Assembly (NCBI GenBank): GCA_013285595.1
Contig: JABDHF010000002.1
Coordinates: forward strand, 22,304 to 86,303
Source of the DNA: Bacteroidota bacterium
GTDB taxonomy: Bacteria; Bacteroidota; Bacteroidia; Chitinophagales; Chitinophagaceae
DNA length: 64,000 nucleotides
Direction: 5' to 3'
Shown: piece after piece, positions 3,001 through 39,532 of the stretch
How the letters are laid out: each line of letters opens with the position of its first letter
How positions within the stretch are numbered: position 1 is the first letter of the stretch
Translations under genes and position numbers: made by a program
Notes under the pieces: model-generated
Told to the model about the DNA's origin: nothing
The model's database searches: none
Seen by the model: only the letters and a program-made list of their open reading frames with translations

Positions 3001-5469
3001 CACTACCCAGTTATAAGAAGATTGGCCTGCCTGCGTGGTGTAAGTTGCACTGCTGTTAGCGCAGATCGACGCACCCGGCGCAGCAGTAAACGTAGGCACC
3101 GCCAATGCATTTACCGTTGTTGTGTTAGATGCAGGGCTTGCGCCGGTGCAGCCTGCTGTATTTGAATAGTTAACCATTACGGTTTTACTGCCCGTGGTCA
3201 GCCAGGTGAGCGTTACCGTATTGCTCGTACTGCTTATGTCACCCGCTGTAATTGTATAATCTGTGCCAGATATGCCCGGCACTGTCCAGTTGTATGCTAA
3301 CCGCGCTGCGGTAGTGGTATAAGTGACACTGCTGCCAACACAGGTATTAGGTGTAGGAGCCACTGTAAATGTAGGAACGGGTATGTTGTTTACTGTTGTT
3401 GTATTAGTGGCAGGCACTACACCCGCGCAGCTGCCAGTAGTATAATTAATGGTTACCGTTTTACCACCTGTGGTCAGCCATGTAAGTGTTACCGTGTTGC
3501 TGGCGCTGCCAGTGCCACCCGCTGTAACTGTGTAGTCTGTACCTGAAGTACCGGGCACGCCCCATATATAAGAAGACTGGCCAGGCTGTGCAGTGTAAGT
3601 TACGCTGCTATTCCGGCAGGTATTTGCACTGGCGGAAGCCGTAAACGCAGGCACGGGTGATAAGTTAACTGTTGTGGTGGTAGTAGCGGCGCTGGCACCG
3701 GTACAGCCACCTGTATTGGTATAATTTACAGTAACGGTTTTGCCGCCGCTGGTAAGCCAGGTAAGCGTTGCGGTATTGCTGGCGCTGCCTGTACCACCTG
3801 CTGTGATCGTGTAATCGGTACCGGACACACCTGGCACCGTCCATGTGTAAGCATTCTGGCCCGCTTGTGTGGTATACACTGTACTAACGCCGGAGCATGT
3901 AGCCGCACCGGGAGAAGCAGTAAACGTAGCTACCGGCAGCGGATTTACCGTAGTAGCGCTTGATGCCGCGGTTGCACCAGGGCAGCTGCCACTACTGTAA
4001 TTAACAGTTACCGTTTTGCCACCTGTAGTGAGCCACGTAAGCGTTACTGTATTGCTGCTGCTGCCAATGCCACCCGCAGTAATATTGTAATCTGTACCAG
4101 AAGCGCCCGGAACGGTCCATACATAAGATGACTGGCCCGACTGTGTAGTGTATGTTACGCTGCTGTTCACACAGATGTTAGACCCTGGGGAGGTGGTAAA
4201 TGTGGGTGTAGGCAGTGGGGTTACTGTAGCTACGTCAGCTGTGCGGGGAGTTGCAGCGGCATTCAGGCTTATTTTCCAGTTATAAAAATAAGCACGTTGG
4301 CCACCGCCTGTGATCACGCCCACAGCAGCGTCGCCCGTAAGAGAAAAACCGGCAACAGTAGCGGGATACGGCCCATAGGTAGTACCTACTCCCCTGTATA
4401 TCCAGGCTTCTGTACCATCAAATGAAGCATCGCCGCCAATCTGGTAATTGGTAGCGCCAGCCGGAACGGAAAAGCCTAGTGGTATGGTTACCGGCACTGT
4501 ATTAGATATCTGGCCGGCAGTAATAGTAACGATAGGTGCAGTGGCTAATAAGGTGCCTGCATTGTCTTTCATCACTATTATTAAATTGCCGGTAGTATTA
4601 GGGTAAACGTCGACTGAATTGATGGTTACCGCATTAGTTGATGAAAACCAGTGCAGGTCTGACCGCTGGTCCATCTGGTATGCAGCGGTAACAACAGTAT
4701 TGTCCGACAAGCTACCCGTCTGGATCGTGGCAGATTGTGATGCCTCAGCGTAATAAGTAGTTGTGCCGCTTATTGAAGGGGTGGTAAAAGATGTGCCGGT
4801 ACCTACGTTAGTGCCCGCAGTCAATGCATCAAACCAGTTGATCGTAGAGCCGGTGGAAGCTGTAGCGCTTAAAGATACAGTGCCGGTGCCGCACCTGCTG
4901 CCGGCAACAGCGCCGGTAATAACAGGATTTACAATAGTAACCGTACCGGTGGCCACGGCCGAACCAGTTACAGAGCCTGTAGATACCGCAATATTGGCAG
5001 CGGGTATAGATGCAACCGAAATGGTATGCCCAGATACCGGCGCTGAAGCAAAGGTAGGCACTACAAAGAAATAGTACGGAACACCAGAGCTTGTAGACAA
5101 GGTATAGGGCGTGCTTAAATTCATGGTCTGCAGCCCTGCGCCTGTAGCAGTTAATGTACCTGAAGGTACAAGAGTGGCGCCGCTGATGGAATTAACACCT
5201 GCATTTACATAGAGCGTAAATGTGGTAATATCTGTAGTTGTATAAGTTCCGGCTGTGGTAAATTTAACCTGTGTCACATTCGCATTGCCTACCGTTTGCA
5301 TTAAAGAAAAGCTGGCGATAGGATTACTCACCGCAGGGCTGGAGTTGATAATTGACGGGCCTATATTAGAGGTCACTATATTGCCATCGGCAAGAGCAGT
5401 GGCCTGGCCGTAACTTTTAGTTATTGAACAGCAAAGGAATAACAGAAAGATAAAATGTATCTTTTTCAT
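1..5469 (-). CDS. Giant secreted PKD/Ig-like repeat protein, C-terminus outside window
   Basis: The frame opens at an ATG at 5469 and stays open to base 1, giving at least 1823 residues; the C-terminus, including any T9SS tail, lies beyond the left edge. Residues 1-22 are a signal peptide (MKKIHFIFLLFLCC... ending in GQ). A non-repetitive head runs to about residue 420. Nine units of ~90 residues follow, each with P-x-P-T-F, one Cys, YTTQAGQ, WTVPG and VTLTWL; these read as PKD/Ig-like beta-sandwiches. Seven ~70-residue units follow, with ITG, a Cys, GG-x-WSSSN, ITY and VTVNPLP, the same unit that fills the giant gene at 6396-13634. A different domain starts near base 230. The role is probably a secreted or surface adhesin, inferred only from architecture. 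The gene is much more GC-rich than the island downstream. Confidence 0.85.
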   Translation of the reverse strand, partial: MKKIHFIFLLFLCCSITKSYGQATALADGNIVTSNIGPSIINSSPAVSNPIASFSLMQTVGNANVTQVKFTTAGTYTTTDITTFTLYVNAGVNSISGATLVPSGTLTATGAGLQTMNLSTPYTLSTSSGVPYYFFVVPTFASAPVSGHTISVASIPAANIAVSTGSVTGSAVATGTVTIVNPVITGAVAGSRCGTGTVSLSATASTGSTINWFDALTAGTNVGTGTSFTTPSISGTTTYYAEASQSATIQTGSLSDNTVVTAAYQMDQRSDLHWFSSTNAVTINSVDVYPNTTGNLIIVMKDNAGTLLATAPIVTITAGQISNTVPVTIPLGFSVPAGATNYQIGGDASFDGTEAWIYRGVGTTYGPYPATVAGFSLTGDAAVGVITGGGQRAYFYNWKISLNAAATPRTADVATVTPLPTPTFTTSPGSNICVNSSVTYTTQSGQSSYVWTVPGASGTDYNITAGGIGSSSNTVTLTWLTTGGKTVTVNYSSGSCPGATAASSATTVNPLPVATFTASPGAATCSGVSTVYTTQAGQNAYTWTVPGVSGTDYTITAGGTGSASNTATLTWLTSGGKTVTVNYTNTGGCTGASAATTTTTVNLSPVPAFTASASANTCRNSSVTYTAQPGQSSYIWGVPGTSGTDYTVTAGGTGSASNTVTLTWLTTGGKTVTINYTTGSCAGVVPATNTTTVNNIPVPTFTVAPTPNTCVGSSVTYTTTAARLAYNWTVPGISGTDYTITAGDISSTSNTVTLTWLTTGSKTVMVNYSNTAGCTGASPASNTTTVNALAVPTFTAAPGASICANSSATYTTQAGQSSYNWVVPGAAGTDYTITSGGIGSASNTVTLTWLTGGSKTVTINYTNAGGCPGAVAASAATTVNLLPTPTFISSAAPATCAASATVYQTQAGQSSYVWSVPGVAGTDYNITAGDIGSTSNSATIVWLTPGSKTVAVNYTNANSCTGASAATNTTTVDALPVPTFISSPGANICANYGLTYSTLSGQSAYTWTVDGTAGTDYNITAGSTSTNTITITWITTGGKNVTVNYTDAAGCTGATPATNTTTVNATPVPTFTSSPSASTCANSSVIYTTQASQLSYAWTVGGVAGVDYTITSGGISATDNTVTLMWLTAGSKTVTVNYGVAAGCTGIVPASSTTTVNAQPVPSFSEAPTTDICATGSATYTTQAGEASYTWSVPGVAGTDYIITSGGIGAASNTVSLNWLTPGSTMVTVNYIDVNGCTGATAASNTVMINPLPAVITGPGEVCEASDIILSDGTSGGSWSGSNSSVIVDATSGDVSGIAAGTAAITYSLSTGCTMSTVVTVNPLPAAISGSNVVCLGSQVALFGAGGGTWLSSDGTIATVGTSSGIVSGVLAGSATITYTLPTGCLTTTAFTVNPLPSGIVGITNVCTGAITNLSDPDGGGSWTSGNTLSATVDAGSGAVTGISEGSVMITYTLPTSCKTATNVTVNLTPAAITGLGNVCVGSSVALSDINSGGSWATSDASIGSLTANTVNGVSQGTLTITYTLPAGCFAVKPVTVNPLPSAIAGSTAVCVGFTTSLTNPDGTSTWSSSNTSIATVNPTSGSVGGVAAGTINITFTLPTGCATDVAFTVNPSPLPILGANAVCLNDSTLLTDLTPGGAWTSAAGTGTVNIDATGKITGLVPGNAIITYSKFGCTTTRNIFVNSLPAPVTGIAQLCATTTAALADAVTGGTWSSSNTALATVNAANGVVSGLSAGAATITYKLPTGCYLTTIETINPLPVVYTVTGGGNYCAGAGGLHVGLSGSQPGVNYQLFYGVTLVGAPMPGTGTSLDFGPQTLAEVYTI

Positions 5470-33798: not shown

Positions 33799-34093
33799 TG
33801 ACGATAATCCCTCCCATGTATTATAATTTCATAGGTAATATTTCATTTAAGCTAATCTTTGTTTTAAACAAGAAATTGGCAGAAGTAAGGCAATACTATG
33901 ATTTTAGCACTTTCGGACGTTTAAACACAAGATAATCGCGCGTTTTGCATGTTTTTATAGTTTTACAAGACACTGGACAAAATACGGATTAAAAAACATT
34001 GTGAATGTGGAATTAAAGACAGAATTTTATGATTGAAAATAATCATCAAGAACAATGACATAGATATAAGATATTGATATAAAGATTTTGCAT

Positions 34094-34234
34094 TTAGCAA
34101 ACTATCCTCGCCTCTGAAAGGTCGAAAATTCAAGTGCAACGAGGGAAGTGGGCAAGTGCTCAGGCGTGGGCTTGGGCTTTGCTTCACTTTCGTTGCACAG
34201 GGATTCGACCCCCTCAGAGACGGAGTGAATGCTA
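34094..34234. repeat. Long imperfect inverted repeat (~141 bp)
   Basis: Successive arms pair from outside in: TTAGC (34094) with GCTAA (34230), CCTCTGA (34111-34117) with TCAGAG (34214-34219), GGTCGAA (34120-34126) with TTCGACC (34204-34210), GTGCAACGA (34134-34142) with TCGTTGCAC (34190-34198), AAGTG (34146) with CACTT (34185). The region is far more GC-rich than its surroundings. It may be a MITE-like element or a structured RNA; no transposase or tRNA fits. Confidence 0.5.
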
Positions 34235-34285
34235 AGGTTCCAAGCCTGTTTGTTTTACCCAACGCACAAAACAAAACACCTGAGT

Positions 34286-34903
34286 ATGAAAAACCGGATC
34301 AACTATAAAATAGGGTCGATTTTTATTGCGTCGATAATATTTTTTTGTTTTCAAAATTGCAATTCATACAACAACAATGAGAACATTGACTCCTTGAAAA
34401 ATCAAAAAGGAGAATTTAAATATGAATGGATTCCCGATAAAAAAGATGATTTTCAGATCGACTATCAGGAATATGGTGATAGAAAGCTCTATCCTCATCT
34501 AATAAAATATATAATAGAAGGAAAAATTAAAAACAACACTTGCAACATTTATAAAAAGGCGAAGTTGACATTAATTTTATTATTCGAGCTCGAAAATGGC
34601 AAGATGTTATCAGGGGATGATGTGAATTATTCTAAGATGTTTGGGGGGTGTAATGATTTTACTATCTGGTCTAACTGGAAGCCATCAGAAGAAACAATAA
34701 TTTCAGATTTACATTCCTGTTCTTTTTCCACCGAATACATAGATTATCCGATAAAAAGAGCCATAATACAATGCCGGATAGAGTTAGTCGATCAGATTAA
34801 CGGAACAAACGAAACAATAATCAATTCACAAAATGATGTAACCGACAAATGGCAGGGTATTGTATCAAAAGTTAAAAAAGATGCTAAAGGAATACATAAA
34901 TGA
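34286..34903 (+). CDS. Putative lipoprotein of unknown function
   Basis: 205 residues from the ATG at 34286; an upstream ATG at 34229 falls inside the inverted repeat and would add a non-signal leader. The start encodes MKNRINYKIGSIFIASIIFF followed by CFQNC, a signal peptide with a lipobox-like Cys, then an N/E-rich linker, suggesting an outer-membrane or periplasmic lipoprotein. The mature part has four Cys and is beta-rich. No family recognised. Confidence 0.55.
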   Translation: MKNRINYKIGSIFIASIIFFCFQNCNSYNNNENIDSLKNQKGEFKYEWIPDKKDDFQIDYQEYGDRKLYPHLIKYIIEGKIKNNTCNIYKKAKLTLILLFELENGKMLSGDDVNYSKMFGGCNDFTIWSNWKPSEETIISDLHSCSFSTEYIDYPIKRAIIQCRIELVDQINGTNETIINSQNDVTDKWQGIVSKVKKDAKGIHK

Positions 34904-35200: not shown

Positions 35201-36679
35201 ATGGCACAAGAATTCATTAAAGCTGCTGCCGATATTTTACGAGACCATGGAGAGCCTTTGCTTGTAAAAGACATTTATCATCTTGCCCTTGAAAAACAGA
35301 TATTAAAATCGGGAGGAAAAACTCCTGTTAATACTCTTAGGGCAAGGCTATCAGAGCATATTCGAAGAGAAAAAGAAGCATCACTATTTAAGCGTATTAG
35401 TCCAAATAGATTTGCTCTTAGAGAATGGGATCAATTTACAGAATATAAGGCTCCTCCTTTTGACAAGAATAGAAGTAAGGAAGTAGTTGTTTGCATTACT
35501 CAAGAACTAGTTGACAAGAACGGTCGCTTTTTTGGATTCTCAACTCGATTTCAGCCATACTTGAAGGATCTGGAAGACACAGCTAATATCTTGTTGATTA
35601 ATCGCGAGGAGGCGAAAAATAGGACTGATATTAAGCAACTCGTTTCTTATGTACTTATTAGAGATGCCCAAGGGAGGATCTTATCATTCGTTAGGGGAAG
35701 CTATGGCCAAAAGGAGAGCCTATTATTAGGAGTCTTATGCATTGGATTTGGCGGCCATGTTAATAATAAAGACATTGATTTATTTACTGAAGATGCTGGC
35801 GTTTCAAATTCTGCCAGAAGGGAAATATATGAGGAAATTAAGGGGTTAGTAATTCAGAACTTAGCTTGTGTTGGTGTTATCAATGATGATTCATCGCCTT
35901 TAGGTTTGAACCATTTTGCTTTTGTCTACGAGGCTAAGCTGCCTAAATGCTTTCCTATAGAAAAGATACATAAAGAGAAAGCGATTAGCAAAGTAAAACT
36001 TTTAGATCCCTATGAGGCATGGGAGAAGTTTCATGAAATGGAATTCTGGTCGCAATTACTCATGAAGAAATTTATACCGAAGCCAGACAGCTACATTCCG
36101 GTATTTGTAAAGGATAAGACAGGACGGTACCATAATGCGCCGTTGGCAATAGTGGGCGAAGTTGGTTGCGGAAAGTCTGAAGCAGCAAGGTTTATGTCAA
36201 ATAGATATGACATGCCAATAGTTTCTACTCGGCAGTGTATTGCCAAGCTTATCAGAGAACCAGATTTTGGCGTTGGAGATCGACAAAAGTTTCAGATAAA
36301 ATCGTTAAAGTTTATTTCACAACCAGATGGAATAAAGAAGCTTGCAGAGAAAATTATTAAAGAAGTCAGGCGTTGTAAAGTGTCCAATGTAATTATCGAT
36401 GGAATAAGAAATGTTGAAACATACGACTATCTAAAAAATGAATTGCCCAATCTGAATCTGATGTATATAGATGTACCACGTGACACCGCATTGGGTTTAT
36501 TCACAAATAGGAGTAGAAATCGCAATGTTAGCATTAACGAATTTAGGCAAGCACGTGATCATCAGGTGGAAAAAGAAATAATACTATTCAAGACAAGAGC
36601 AGATATATATCTTTTCAACGGCGGTACGTTGGGTGACCTAACAAAAACAATAAAAAAATGGTGGGATGAAGCAGAATAA
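35201..36679 (+). CDS. HARE-HTH, Nudix-like and P-loop kinase fusion
   Basis: 492 residues from the ATG at 35201 (an upstream in-frame TTG at 35135 adds an unlikely leader). Residues 1-75 are a HARE-HTH winged helix (EFIKAAADILRDHGEPLLVK, then NTLRARLSEHI, RFALREW), a domain of restriction and chromatin proteins. Residues ~145-265 are Nudix-like: LIRDAQGRILSFVRG, GFGGHV and ARREIYEEIKGL, close to the Nudix box but with one extra residue. Residues ~305-490 form a nucleotide kinase: AIVGEVGCGKSEA near 313, NVIIDGIRN, and an Arg-rich lid (FTNRSRNRN). It probably binds DNA and handles a nucleotide. First gene of a tight operon; its end overlaps the next gene by 14 bases. Confidence 0.75.
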   Translation: MAQEFIKAAADILRDHGEPLLVKDIYHLALEKQILKSGGKTPVNTLRARLSEHIRREKEASLFKRISPNRFALREWDQFTEYKAPPFDKNRSKEVVVCITQELVDKNGRFFGFSTRFQPYLKDLEDTANILLINREEAKNRTDIKQLVSYVLIRDAQGRILSFVRGSYGQKESLLLGVLCIGFGGHVNNKDIDLFTEDAGVSNSARREIYEEIKGLVIQNLACVGVINDDSSPLGLNHFAFVYEAKLPKCFPIEKIHKEKAISKVKLLDPYEAWEKFHEMEFWSQLLMKKFIPKPDSYIPVFVKDKTGRYHNAPLAIVGEVGCGKSEAARFMSNRYDMPIVSTRQCIAKLIREPDFGVGDRQKFQIKSLKFISQPDGIKKLAEKIIKEVRRCKVSNVIIDGIRNVETYDYLKNELPNLNLMYIDVPRDTALGLFTNRSRNRNVSINEFRQARDHQVEKEIILFKTRADIYLFNGGTLGDLTKTIKKWWDEAE

Positions 36680-37304
36680 ACACAAATACCAAGAAGAGTA
36701 TGAAAACACTGTCGGGCTATTTTGGGATAACAAGCCTGCAAAGTATGTTCGGCTATTTACTGAAACAATACAAAATGATTTGTCTAACTGGAAAGTTCTA
36801 GACCTTGGTGCTGGCGAGGGTAAGAATGCAGTATTCTTAGCGGGATTAGGTGGTAGAATAACAGCAGTTGACATATCGTCAGTGGCTTTATCAAAATTTC
36901 ATTTGCAGCCCAATTACGATAATTACAAGAATAATATAAATAGAGTAAATTGCAATATTTTAGATGTTGCGTTTGAAGAGTTGAGCTTTGATTTGATTAT
37001 CGCTTATGGAATACTTCATTGTCTGTCCGATAAAGAGGAAATAAAGCGGTTTGTTCAGCGGCTAAAAAAATGGGGCAAGAGTGGCAGTTACTTTATCGGA
37101 GCGACATTTACTGACGCTATTCCACCTCCAAGCATTCAAGATTACTTGGGCATTGAGGCCTTTCTTTCAGCAGGCGAGTTTGAAGAGTTATTTGGGGATT
37201 GGAGTGTTGTTTGTAGTGAAGATGCGATAATCACTGAAAGTCACCCCACCTCGGGACTATCTCATCAGCATTCAATAACTAGACTTATAGCCAAAAAAAT
37301 ATGA
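36666..37304 (+). CDS. Class I SAM-dependent methyltransferase
   Basis: 212 residues. Motif I WKVLDLGAGEGKNAVFLAG (SAM-binding glycine loop, ~43-60), acidic motif II GRITAVDISSVAL, and LIIAYGILHCL after strand 4: the TehB/UbiE-like small-molecule methyltransferase pattern. No target-recognition domain or N-P-P-Y-type motif is seen, so a base in DNA is a less likely direct target than a nucleotide or other small molecule. It begins inside the end of the kinase fusion gene and overlaps the SIR2 gene by four bases (ATGA). Confidence 0.8.
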   Translation: MKQNKHKYQEEYENTVGLFWDNKPAKYVRLFTETIQNDLSNWKVLDLGAGEGKNAVFLAGLGGRITAVDISSVALSKFHLQPNYDNYKNNINRVNCNILDVAFEELSFDLIIAYGILHCLSDKEEIKRFVQRLKKWGKSGSYFIGATFTDAIPPPSIQDYLGIEAFLSAGEFEELFGDWSVVCSEDAIITESHPTSGLSHQHSITRLIAKKI

Positions 37305-38125
37305 CAATGCCACACTCTGAGGAAATTCAAAAAGCAAATCAAGAAGGCCGGTTAATACCGTTCGTAGGGTCTGGTTTTTCCAAACCACTTGGTTTGCCTG
37401 ACTGGCGTGGGCTTATTGCTCAGGTTGCCGAGAAAGTTGGATATGAGTCTGATCTTTTTTTTCTACACGGCAGCTACCCTCAACTTTTAGAATATTTGAG
37501 CAGGTATCACCAACATGAATGGAATGAATTTGTTCATAACATGACTGTGAAATTCGATTCCGAGGATGCAGTCCAAAAACGAAAAAAATCACCTACACAC
37601 ATAGCTTTAACGCAGTTGAACGTTAAAACAATTTACACAACAAATTACGATACTCATATTGAGAGTTGTTTGCGTGATAGTGGTAAATGCGTACGAGAGT
37701 ATGCAAGTCTTGCAGACTTTGTCCGGGCAGAAGACAAATCAATTGAATGCGAGGTAATCAAATTTCATGGAACATTGGTCGACCCTTCAACCCTTGTCTT
37801 AACGGAAAGTCAGTATTTCGATAGGATGTCATTAGAAGAGGCTGTGGATCAGCGCTTGAGGTCTGATTTATTAAGCAACAGTTTCTTATTTATGGGATAT
37901 AGTTTCAACGATACCAATATTAGATACATCTGGTATAAAATAAATAAGCTGAAAAGTCTGCAGAATAGGGCTTCTGGATTTACTTTAAGACCTTCATATT
38001 TTGTCACTTTCGGTAACGAGCCTATCCAATCGGAACTTCTGAAAAAGTGGGACATAATCACGATCAATCTTGACCCTGTTGACCCCACAAATAGCCTTGC
38101 TGACTTTCTAAATCAAATAAAATGA
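37301..38125 (+). CDS. SIR2-like domain protein (probable NADase effector)
   Basis: 274 residues. LIPFVGSGFSKPLGLPDWRG is the NAD-binding glycine motif, TIYTTNYDTHIE carries the catalytic-type Asn-Tyr-Asp, IKFHG the conserved His, and FLFMGYSFNDTNIRYIW the late SIR2_2 motif. SIR2-like proteins of this kind deplete NAD in phage-defence systems such as Thoeris and DSR. Here all key residues look intact, so it is the best candidate for the killing or abortive-infection arm of the operon. Four-base ATGA overlaps on both sides make it part of a translationally linked chain. Confidence 0.82.
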   Translation: MTMPHSEEIQKANQEGRLIPFVGSGFSKPLGLPDWRGLIAQVAEKVGYESDLFFLHGSYPQLLEYLSRYHQHEWNEFVHNMTVKFDSEDAVQKRKKSPTHIALTQLNVKTIYTTNYDTHIESCLRDSGKCVREYASLADFVRAEDKSIECEVIKFHGTLVDPSTLVLTESQYFDRMSLEEAVDQRLRSDLLSNSFLFMGYSFNDTNIRYIWYKINKLKSLQNRASGFTLRPSYFVTFGNEPIQSELLKKWDIITINLDPVDPTNSLADFLNQIK

Positions 38126-38686: not shown

Positions 38687-39532
38687 TTGGAAAAGAAAAG
38701 CACAGCAGAAATCAAGGGAACAAAAGCAAAGCCATTTTTACGATGGGCAGGAGGTAAAAAATGGTTACAAAAGCATTTAAATTCATTACTACCCACATCC
38801 GGCTTTAATAATTATCATGAACCATTTTTGGGTGGAGGGGCTATGTTTTTTTCCTTACAGCCATCAAATAAAGCATTTTTATCTGATCTCAATAATGATT
38901 TGATTGCAACTTATCAGACTTTAAAAATAGATGCGTCTGAAGTAATTAAAGAGCTAAAAAAATACAAAAATGAAGAAGATTTTTATTATGAAATAAGAGA
39001 TAAGAAATATAGGAACTCAGCTCGTTTGGCTGCGAAATTCATATACCTAAATCAAACTTCTTTCAATGGTATTTACAGAGTAAATCTAAGGGGCGAATAT
39101 AACGTTCCATTTGGCTATCGAACAAAGGACTTTGTTGAAACGGAGAATTTACTATCAGTAAGCAAAACCTTAAAATCTGCGACAATCTTTAATGGCGATT
39201 TTGAATTGGCAACAGACAACATAAAAAAGAAGGATCTGGTTTTTTTAGACCCACCTTACACAGTTTCACACAATGACAATGGCTTCATAAAATATAACCA
39301 AAAGCTGTTTTCGTTAGAAGACCAATACAGATTGAGTAAGTTAATTGATGTCGTTAAATCGAAGGGGGCATACTACATACTAACAAATGCGGCACATGTG
39401 GCTATTGATGAAATTTTTGAGAAAGGAGACAGGAAATTAGAATTGAGTCGAGCTAATTTGATAGGAGGTACTAATGCACAACGTGGCCATACCAAAGAAT
39501 TTATTTTCACTAATATTGAAAACGAATTATGA
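38687..39532 (+). CDS. Dam-type N6-adenine DNA methyltransferase (D12 class)
   Basis: 281 residues. FLRWAGGKKWL at ~18-28 is the Dam SAM motif, EPFLGGGAMFF follows, FIYLNQTSFNGIYRVN is the central Dam motif, and DPPYTVSHNDNGFIKY is the catalytic motif IV. The family (M.DpnIIA, Dam) methylates adenine, often in GATC; the specificity here is not proven. The only start before the conserved region is TTG at 38687, four bases after the previous stop. Overlaps the DGQHR gene by four bases. As part of the operon it could mark self-DNA. Confidence 0.87.
   Translation: MEKKSTAEIKGTKAKPFLRWAGGKKWLQKHLNSLLPTSGFNNYHEPFLGGGAMFFSLQPSNKAFLSDLNNDLIATYQTLKIDASEVIKELKKYKNEEDFYYEIRDKKYRNSARLAAKFIYLNQTSFNGIYRVNLRGEYNVPFGYRTKDFVETENLLSVSKTLKSATIFNGDFELATDNIKKKDLVFLDPPYTVSHNDNGFIKYNQKLFSLEDQYRLSKLIDVVKSKGAYYILTNAAHVAIDEIFEKGDRKLELSRANLIGGTNAQRGHTKEFIFTNIENEL

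Follow-up and report, generated by a model that had tools for sequence, protein, structure and literature searches.

Introduction

Kissing-loop RNA pairs, such as a plasmid antisense RNA and its target, have complementary hairpin loops, and their stems can merge into one long duplex. Terminator/antiterminator leader RNAs have their own promoter, a structured leader with a strand common to two exclusive helices, a U-run, and a coding start soon after it. In Flavobacterium psychrophilum, many unnamed structured leaders (5' regions) and Rfp sRNAs have been reported (PMC9723704).

The element analyzed here, from a Bacteroidota bacterium of the Chitinophagaceae (contig JABDHF010000002.1), resembles terminator/antiterminator leaders in each of the features named above. 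It lies in a stretch of 64,000 nucleotides, hereafter the window, whose coordinates are used unless another locus is named. An original prediction had described a GC-rich nested inverted repeat at 34094-34234 in AT-rich island DNA, and had offered two readings of it: a small transposable element, or a structured RNA upstream of a lipoprotein gene. We report that the element is one copy of an apparently undescribed structured RNA family found across Bacteroidota.

Results

The nested inverted repeat at 34094-34234 was confirmed, and its arms pair in the order that had been predicted. Folding of the segment 34084-34244 as RNA gave a minimum free energy of -69.9 kcal/mol, compared with -47.1 ± 4.2 kcal/mol for dinucleotide shuffles (z -5.4), and none of the 200 shuffles equalled it. 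The opposite strand of this segment folded nearly as well, as is the case for any long inverted repeat. The GC content of 34094-34234 was 52% against 35% for the island, in agreement with the earlier description. As noted in the original prediction, the window contained no second copy; the element was also single in its own genome (59.6% complete).

The extent of the element had to be redrawn. The arms stood, but the boundary did not: the conserved unit was wider, at about 34028-34256, and included a promoter-like box and a U-run. The outermost pair, TTAGC / GCTAA (34094-34098 with about 34230-34234), was not conserved. In homologues its left piece is part of a small 5' hairpin and its right piece is part of a terminator arm.

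All parts of the window copy lie on the plus strand. The promoter-like box (TATGATTG, 34028..34035) differs at one position from the Bacteroidota -7 consensus TAnnTTTG and is at -56 from the modelled RNA start. The small 5' hairpin, P0 (TTTGC / GCAAA, 34087..34101), covaries in the genus alignment, for example as GUUUGC..GCGAAUC in L010. The left strands of the long hairpin are P1 (34109..34117), which pairs with 34214-34222, P2 (GGTCGAA, 34120..34126), which pairs with 34204-34210, and P3 (34134..34142), which pairs with 34190-34198. The P1 left strand has the P3 left strand as its alternative partner, and that pairing gives a left hairpin with the P2 left strand in its loop. The apical hairpin P4/P5 occupies 34146..34189, the loop of its arms being at about 34166-34169, and its right strand (about 34169-34189) is common to the terminator hairpin. 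The right halves of P3, P2, and P1 (34190..34222) include the sequence GGG..P2'..CCC (GGGATTCGACCCC), for which a small hairpin of its own is possible, with P2' in the loop. The tail (AGTGAATGCTAAGGTTCCAAGCC, 34224..34246) is complementary to about 34169-34189 and is the 3' arm of the alternative terminator hairpin, and the terminator U-run (TTTGTTTT, 34249..34256) was read from the sequence. The downstream gene (34286..34903) starts 29 nt after the U-run and encodes a product of 205 aa with a lipoprotein-type signal sequence, for which no Pfam match was found. A tRNA or tmRNA was looked for on account of a TTCGA motif; none was found, and the motif is the P2' strand.

Copies were found in other genomes. 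A nucleotide search of 60 related genomes placed ten copies, with identities of 70-78%, in nine further genomes from within the genus. The homology was limited to about 34051-34244, and the flanking genes differed. The arms change together among these homologues, GTGCAACGA/TCGTTGCAC in the window being replaced by GTACAACAA/CGTTGTAC or CCTACAAAG/CTTTGTAGG in other copies. A first covariance model, built from the ten genus copies, had 20 hits, spread over 14 of the 35 genomes of the genus; in the wider sets it matched 28 of 150 genomes of the family and 16 of 249 of the order. A second model, built from 53 copies, matched 74 of 295 genomes of the class and 47 of 346 of the phylum, with up to nine places per genome, and gave no match on unrelated viral contigs used as a negative control (0.94 Mb, E up to 10). 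A scan of the same contigs with a 14-nt pattern was rejected, as the pattern was too short and returned chance matches. No plasmid or phage sequence searched by blastn matched the window element. An unannotated copy was seen at 4990-5154 of the complete mobilizable plasmid pB3-10 of Rhizosphaericola mali (NZ_CP044017.1, locus L226), where it adjoins a replication initiation gene and precedes an open reading frame that reads as a signal-peptide protein.

No Rfam 15 family matched the whole window at the gathering threshold, and a search of 39 related loci with E up to 1 gave no match over the element; the best weak match for the element was mir-7910 (E 1.2). In the openly licensed literature searched, including PMC11109978, no description of the RNA family was found. 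The kind of RNA to which the element would belong, the attenuating leader RNA, is known, while the family itself appears to be undescribed in Rfam 15 and in this literature. About a quarter of the class genomes sampled carry it, even though the main database of RNA families contains nothing that matches.

The helices were then compared across copies. P2 was paired in 99.7% of the cells of 82 aligned copies, an alignment that was fitted to a model containing P2 and so favours it, and all seven of its pairs showed all four Watson-Crick types. P2 also pairs in a ten-sequence MAFFT alignment built without structure. When P2 was taken together with the GG..CC hairpin, 98.5% of the cells were paired, and the covariation score was 0.70, compared with 0.13 for shuffles and at most 0.11 for slid partners. 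In the small GG..P2'..CC hairpin the GG-N..N-CC pairs were paired in 95.9% of the cells; the third pair, which closes this hairpin and does not occur in the long one, also covaries (UA 27, CG 25, GC 21). For each of P1, P3, P5, and the arm:tail helix, own strands beat swapped strands, and control pairings differed little or not at all. The energy of P3 was -13.1 kcal/mol with its own strands and -5.9 kcal/mol with swapped strands (82 copies), and the own arm:tail pairing was better than the average swapped pairing in all 53 of 53 copies. The corresponding values were -7.3 against -5.0 for the left hairpin and -5.8 against -5.1 for the inner part of the right hairpin, which is weakly own-strand-specific.

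In each of the 81 copies examined, the right half with the tail formed an uninterrupted hairpin on its own (mean z -4.9), and 77 of the 81 had at least five U in the next nine bases. In the window copy (L152) the right half alone gave -37.9 kcal/mol (z -4.1); its U-run is weaker, and its promoter box is present only in the one-mismatch form. The left half can also fold alone with the P2 strand in its loop, to a modest degree (mean z -0.8). Because one strand is common to both, P5 and the arm:tail helix are mutually exclusive, and the terminator-like fold excludes the apical helix of the long hairpin. At the level of sequence, the element has what marks an intrinsic-terminator attenuator, namely a terminator hairpin with a U-run that cannot form together with a second conserved helix.

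In several chromosomal copies the two-hairpin state was already the minimum-energy fold of the whole RNA. In the window copy the two states had energies of -71.3 and -59.0 kcal/mol, values in which a possible kissing P2 helix is uncounted. Since both pairing sets are own-strand-specific, and in view of these two-hairpin minima and two-state energies, the RNA is predicted to be bistable. The minimum-energy folds of a growing chain showed the left hairpin first, then P5, and then the extended hairpin; the tail came last and must invade.

A TAnnTTTG box was found upstream of 53 of 81 copies, compared with 8.9 expected, and on the opposite strand of only 6 of 81. Its position was mostly -53 to -61 in window-like copies and -22 to -31 in a chromosomal group. 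In most window-type copies the downstream gene started 7-65 nt past the end of the model, and there is little room for another promoter because the start codon follows so closely after the U-run on the same strand. Promoter box, structure, U-run, and start codon kept one fixed order in related copies that lay beside unrelated genes. Signal-peptide-like N-termini, called by a simple rule of charge and hydrophobicity and not by a trained predictor, were found in 41 of the 61 copies with an open reading frame starting within 130 nt, compared with 39 of 142 other open reading frames of the same loci. The homologues, the covariation, the promoter position, and the terminator-like anatomy support the original reading of a structured RNA upstream of the lipoprotein gene; the transposable element offered beside it is not supported. 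Of the conditions under which the original prediction was to fall, the data contradict two, a lack of copies elsewhere and a lack of covariation.

Copies of the chromosomal group had no close downstream gene and therefore cannot be attenuators of a gene in cis. Of 24 loci checked, 22 had a small divergent gene whose start lay 103-190 nt upstream. Loci with such a gene include L174, L178, L190, L204, L206, L207, L209, L215, L216, L218, L224, and L225, among others. Six of the divergent-gene proteins were scanned: three matched a Cro/C1-type HTH above the Pfam cut-off, one matched weakly, and two did not match. These HTH proteins belong to different families. Tandem TAnnTTTG boxes between the chromosomal copy and the divergent gene suggest a shared regulatory region. 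Some copies of the group precede ECF sigma factor-like genes (L174, L175, L181), as judged by sequence reading and one weak Pfam match.

The island in the window carries genes for a tyrosine recombinase, an AlpA/HTH_17-type regulator, a PIF1-like helicase, and zeta-toxin-like, Sir2/ThsA-like, and DNA methyltransferase proteins. The Sir2/ThsA-like protein and the methyltransferase, which is Dam-type, are encoded at 37301-38125 and 38687-39532 of the same island and are PADLOC matches. The protein encoded at 35201-36679 combines a HARE-HTH domain with an AAA_17-type nucleotide-binding domain, and no PADLOC match was found for it. The DUF805b RNA (RF02914) was seen near three copies, at 1687-1719 of L167, 2286-2321 of L166, and 2921-2955 of L157; one of these matches passed the gathering score and the other two fell short of it. 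At the gathering threshold this RNA was absent from the window.

In one subtype of the family the gene that follows encodes an N6/N4 DNA methylase, in most cases a type III modification subunit (L156, L171, L184, L227, L228, L231, L234). A third small hairpin (UUUUGUGG-loop-CACAAAA) was observed just after the U-run, ending at the start codon, in L156, L184, L228, L231, L235, and L239. In 6 of 8 copies of the methyltransferase subtype, 5-7 nt of the copy's own P2 left strand recur in the loop of the third hairpin, so that the third and the left hairpin could be rivals for the terminator-hairpin loop. Over all copies, a downstream copy of the P2 left strand was found in 9 cases compared with 2.3 expected, a modest excess carried by the methyltransferase subtype. 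A general rule that the loop of a post-terminator hairpin pairs with the tail is not claimed, as the enrichment was weak (26 copies compared with 17 expected, for at least 6 nt).

Discussion

We think it probable, from comparison of the sequences, that the element is a bistable 5' leader RNA through which transcription attenuation controls cargo genes that move horizontally. On the simplest account, the choice between read-through and termination is made by one strand exchanging its partner. RNA polymerase would start about 50 nt upstream of the hairpin, and the nascent RNA would take one of two mutually exclusive folds. In fold A, the presumed ON state, the left half would pair with the right half in one extended hairpin (P1 to P5) and leave the 3' tail free, and transcription would run on into the exported-protein gene. 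In fold B, there would be two separate hairpins with the complementary P2 strands in their loops, where kissing is possible; the right hairpin would take the tail and, with the U-run, form an intrinsic terminator that would stop transcription before the gene. A signal, which may be a ligand, a protein, or another RNA, would shift the balance between the folds. The sequences themselves show both sets of pairing, the covariation of P2, the U-run, and the places of the promoter box and of the element ahead of start codons; synthesis of the RNA, termination by fold B in cells, the ON state of fold A, and the signal are inferred. Termination would be favoured if the left hairpin or the P2 contact were steadied, and read-through if the left hairpin were opened. 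Several points count against attenuation: the U-run of the window copy is weaker and its promoter box has a mismatch, the terminator arm must displace P4/P5, which forms earlier, the inner part of the right hairpin has little own-strand specificity, and chromosomal copies that lack a close downstream gene have none in cis to attenuate.

The main rival is a free-standing, trans-acting sRNA, for which the U-run hairpin would simply be the terminator, and neighbouring genes would be read by leaky read-through or stand there by chance. This probably applies to the chromosomal group, where copies from other genera come with a promoter box and U-run of their own, besides the divergent upstream gene and the lack of a close downstream gene described above; RNAs with two or three hairpins and of similar size are also known among flavobacterial sRNAs (PMC9723704). 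As an account of the element itself it is rather unlikely, since in window-type copies the close start codon, on the same strand, leaves little space for another promoter, the enrichment for exported proteins is strong, and a constitutive terminator would have no evident need of the conserved alternative of P5 and arm:tail.

The element might instead act at the level of DNA, as a site in which a single strand folds into a promoter used during conjugation (as Frpo of plasmid F does) or into a recombination site resembling attC. Such a site would fit the long imperfect hairpin, the copies on mobile islands and on one mobilizable plasmid, and the ArdC-like or integrase genes directly upstream of some copies. 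We regard it as improbable: TAnnTTTG, the sole box tested, occurs inside the element in 1 of 95 copies on the plus strand and 2 of 95 on the minus strand, the RYYYAAC ... GTTRRRY core pair of attC sites was found near the ends of 0 of 95 copies, the promoter box has a fixed place outside the hairpin, and the U-run is conserved on one strand only. Ribosome-coupled attenuation through a leader peptide is very improbable, although mutually exclusive helices before a U-run are its classical layout, because the ATG frame of the window leader has only two codons, the left part searched lacks an ATG in 37 of 95 copies, and the left strands vary by insertions that would break a frame. A small transposable element (MITE) or a chance palindrome, to which a long inverted repeat in an AT-rich island might point, is scarcely credible given one copy in the 59.6% complete genome and up to nine, diverged, in others, related copies without mobile-element ends, a conserved place before genes, compensatory changes across the phylum, and no shuffle that folds as well.

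The attenuation leader is the reading that we prefer. If this mechanism is true, it would open a way to understanding how Bacteroidota regulate horizontally acquired genes, modification methyltransferases among them, and would offer a clean natural test case of a bistable RNA with one strand common to two conserved helices. A wider proposal, which we offer tentatively and hold to be doubtful, is that the family forms a phylum-wide class of RNA switches serving as a plug-in regulator of horizontal cargo (exported proteins and type III modification genes), in which the terminator-hairpin loop would choose between the left hairpin loop and, in the methyltransferase subtype, the third hairpin at the start codon. 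Competing kissing loops would then couple transcription termination and translation, and the cargo would be silent until a host signal.

Compared with terminator/antiterminator leaders, the proposed states differ, being an extended hairpin on the one side and two hairpins with complementary loops on the other, and the present family precedes many unrelated cargo genes instead of one pathway. The varied downstream genes suggest no ligand, and the element is not filed as a riboswitch. The structured 5' regions and Rfp sRNAs of F. psychrophilum, likened here by description only, come from the same phylum and are similar in size, structured, and mostly without an Rfam match (PMC9723704); some of these leaders or sRNAs may be members of the present family. 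The DUF805b RNA is also a cis-regulatory motif of Bacteroidota, but it is a separate 35-nt motif outside the element. Unlike antisense RNAs and their targets, the family rarely has promoter boxes on the opposite strand. It is like kissing-loop pairs in having two hairpins with complementary loops, and unlike them in that both hairpins lie on one RNA.
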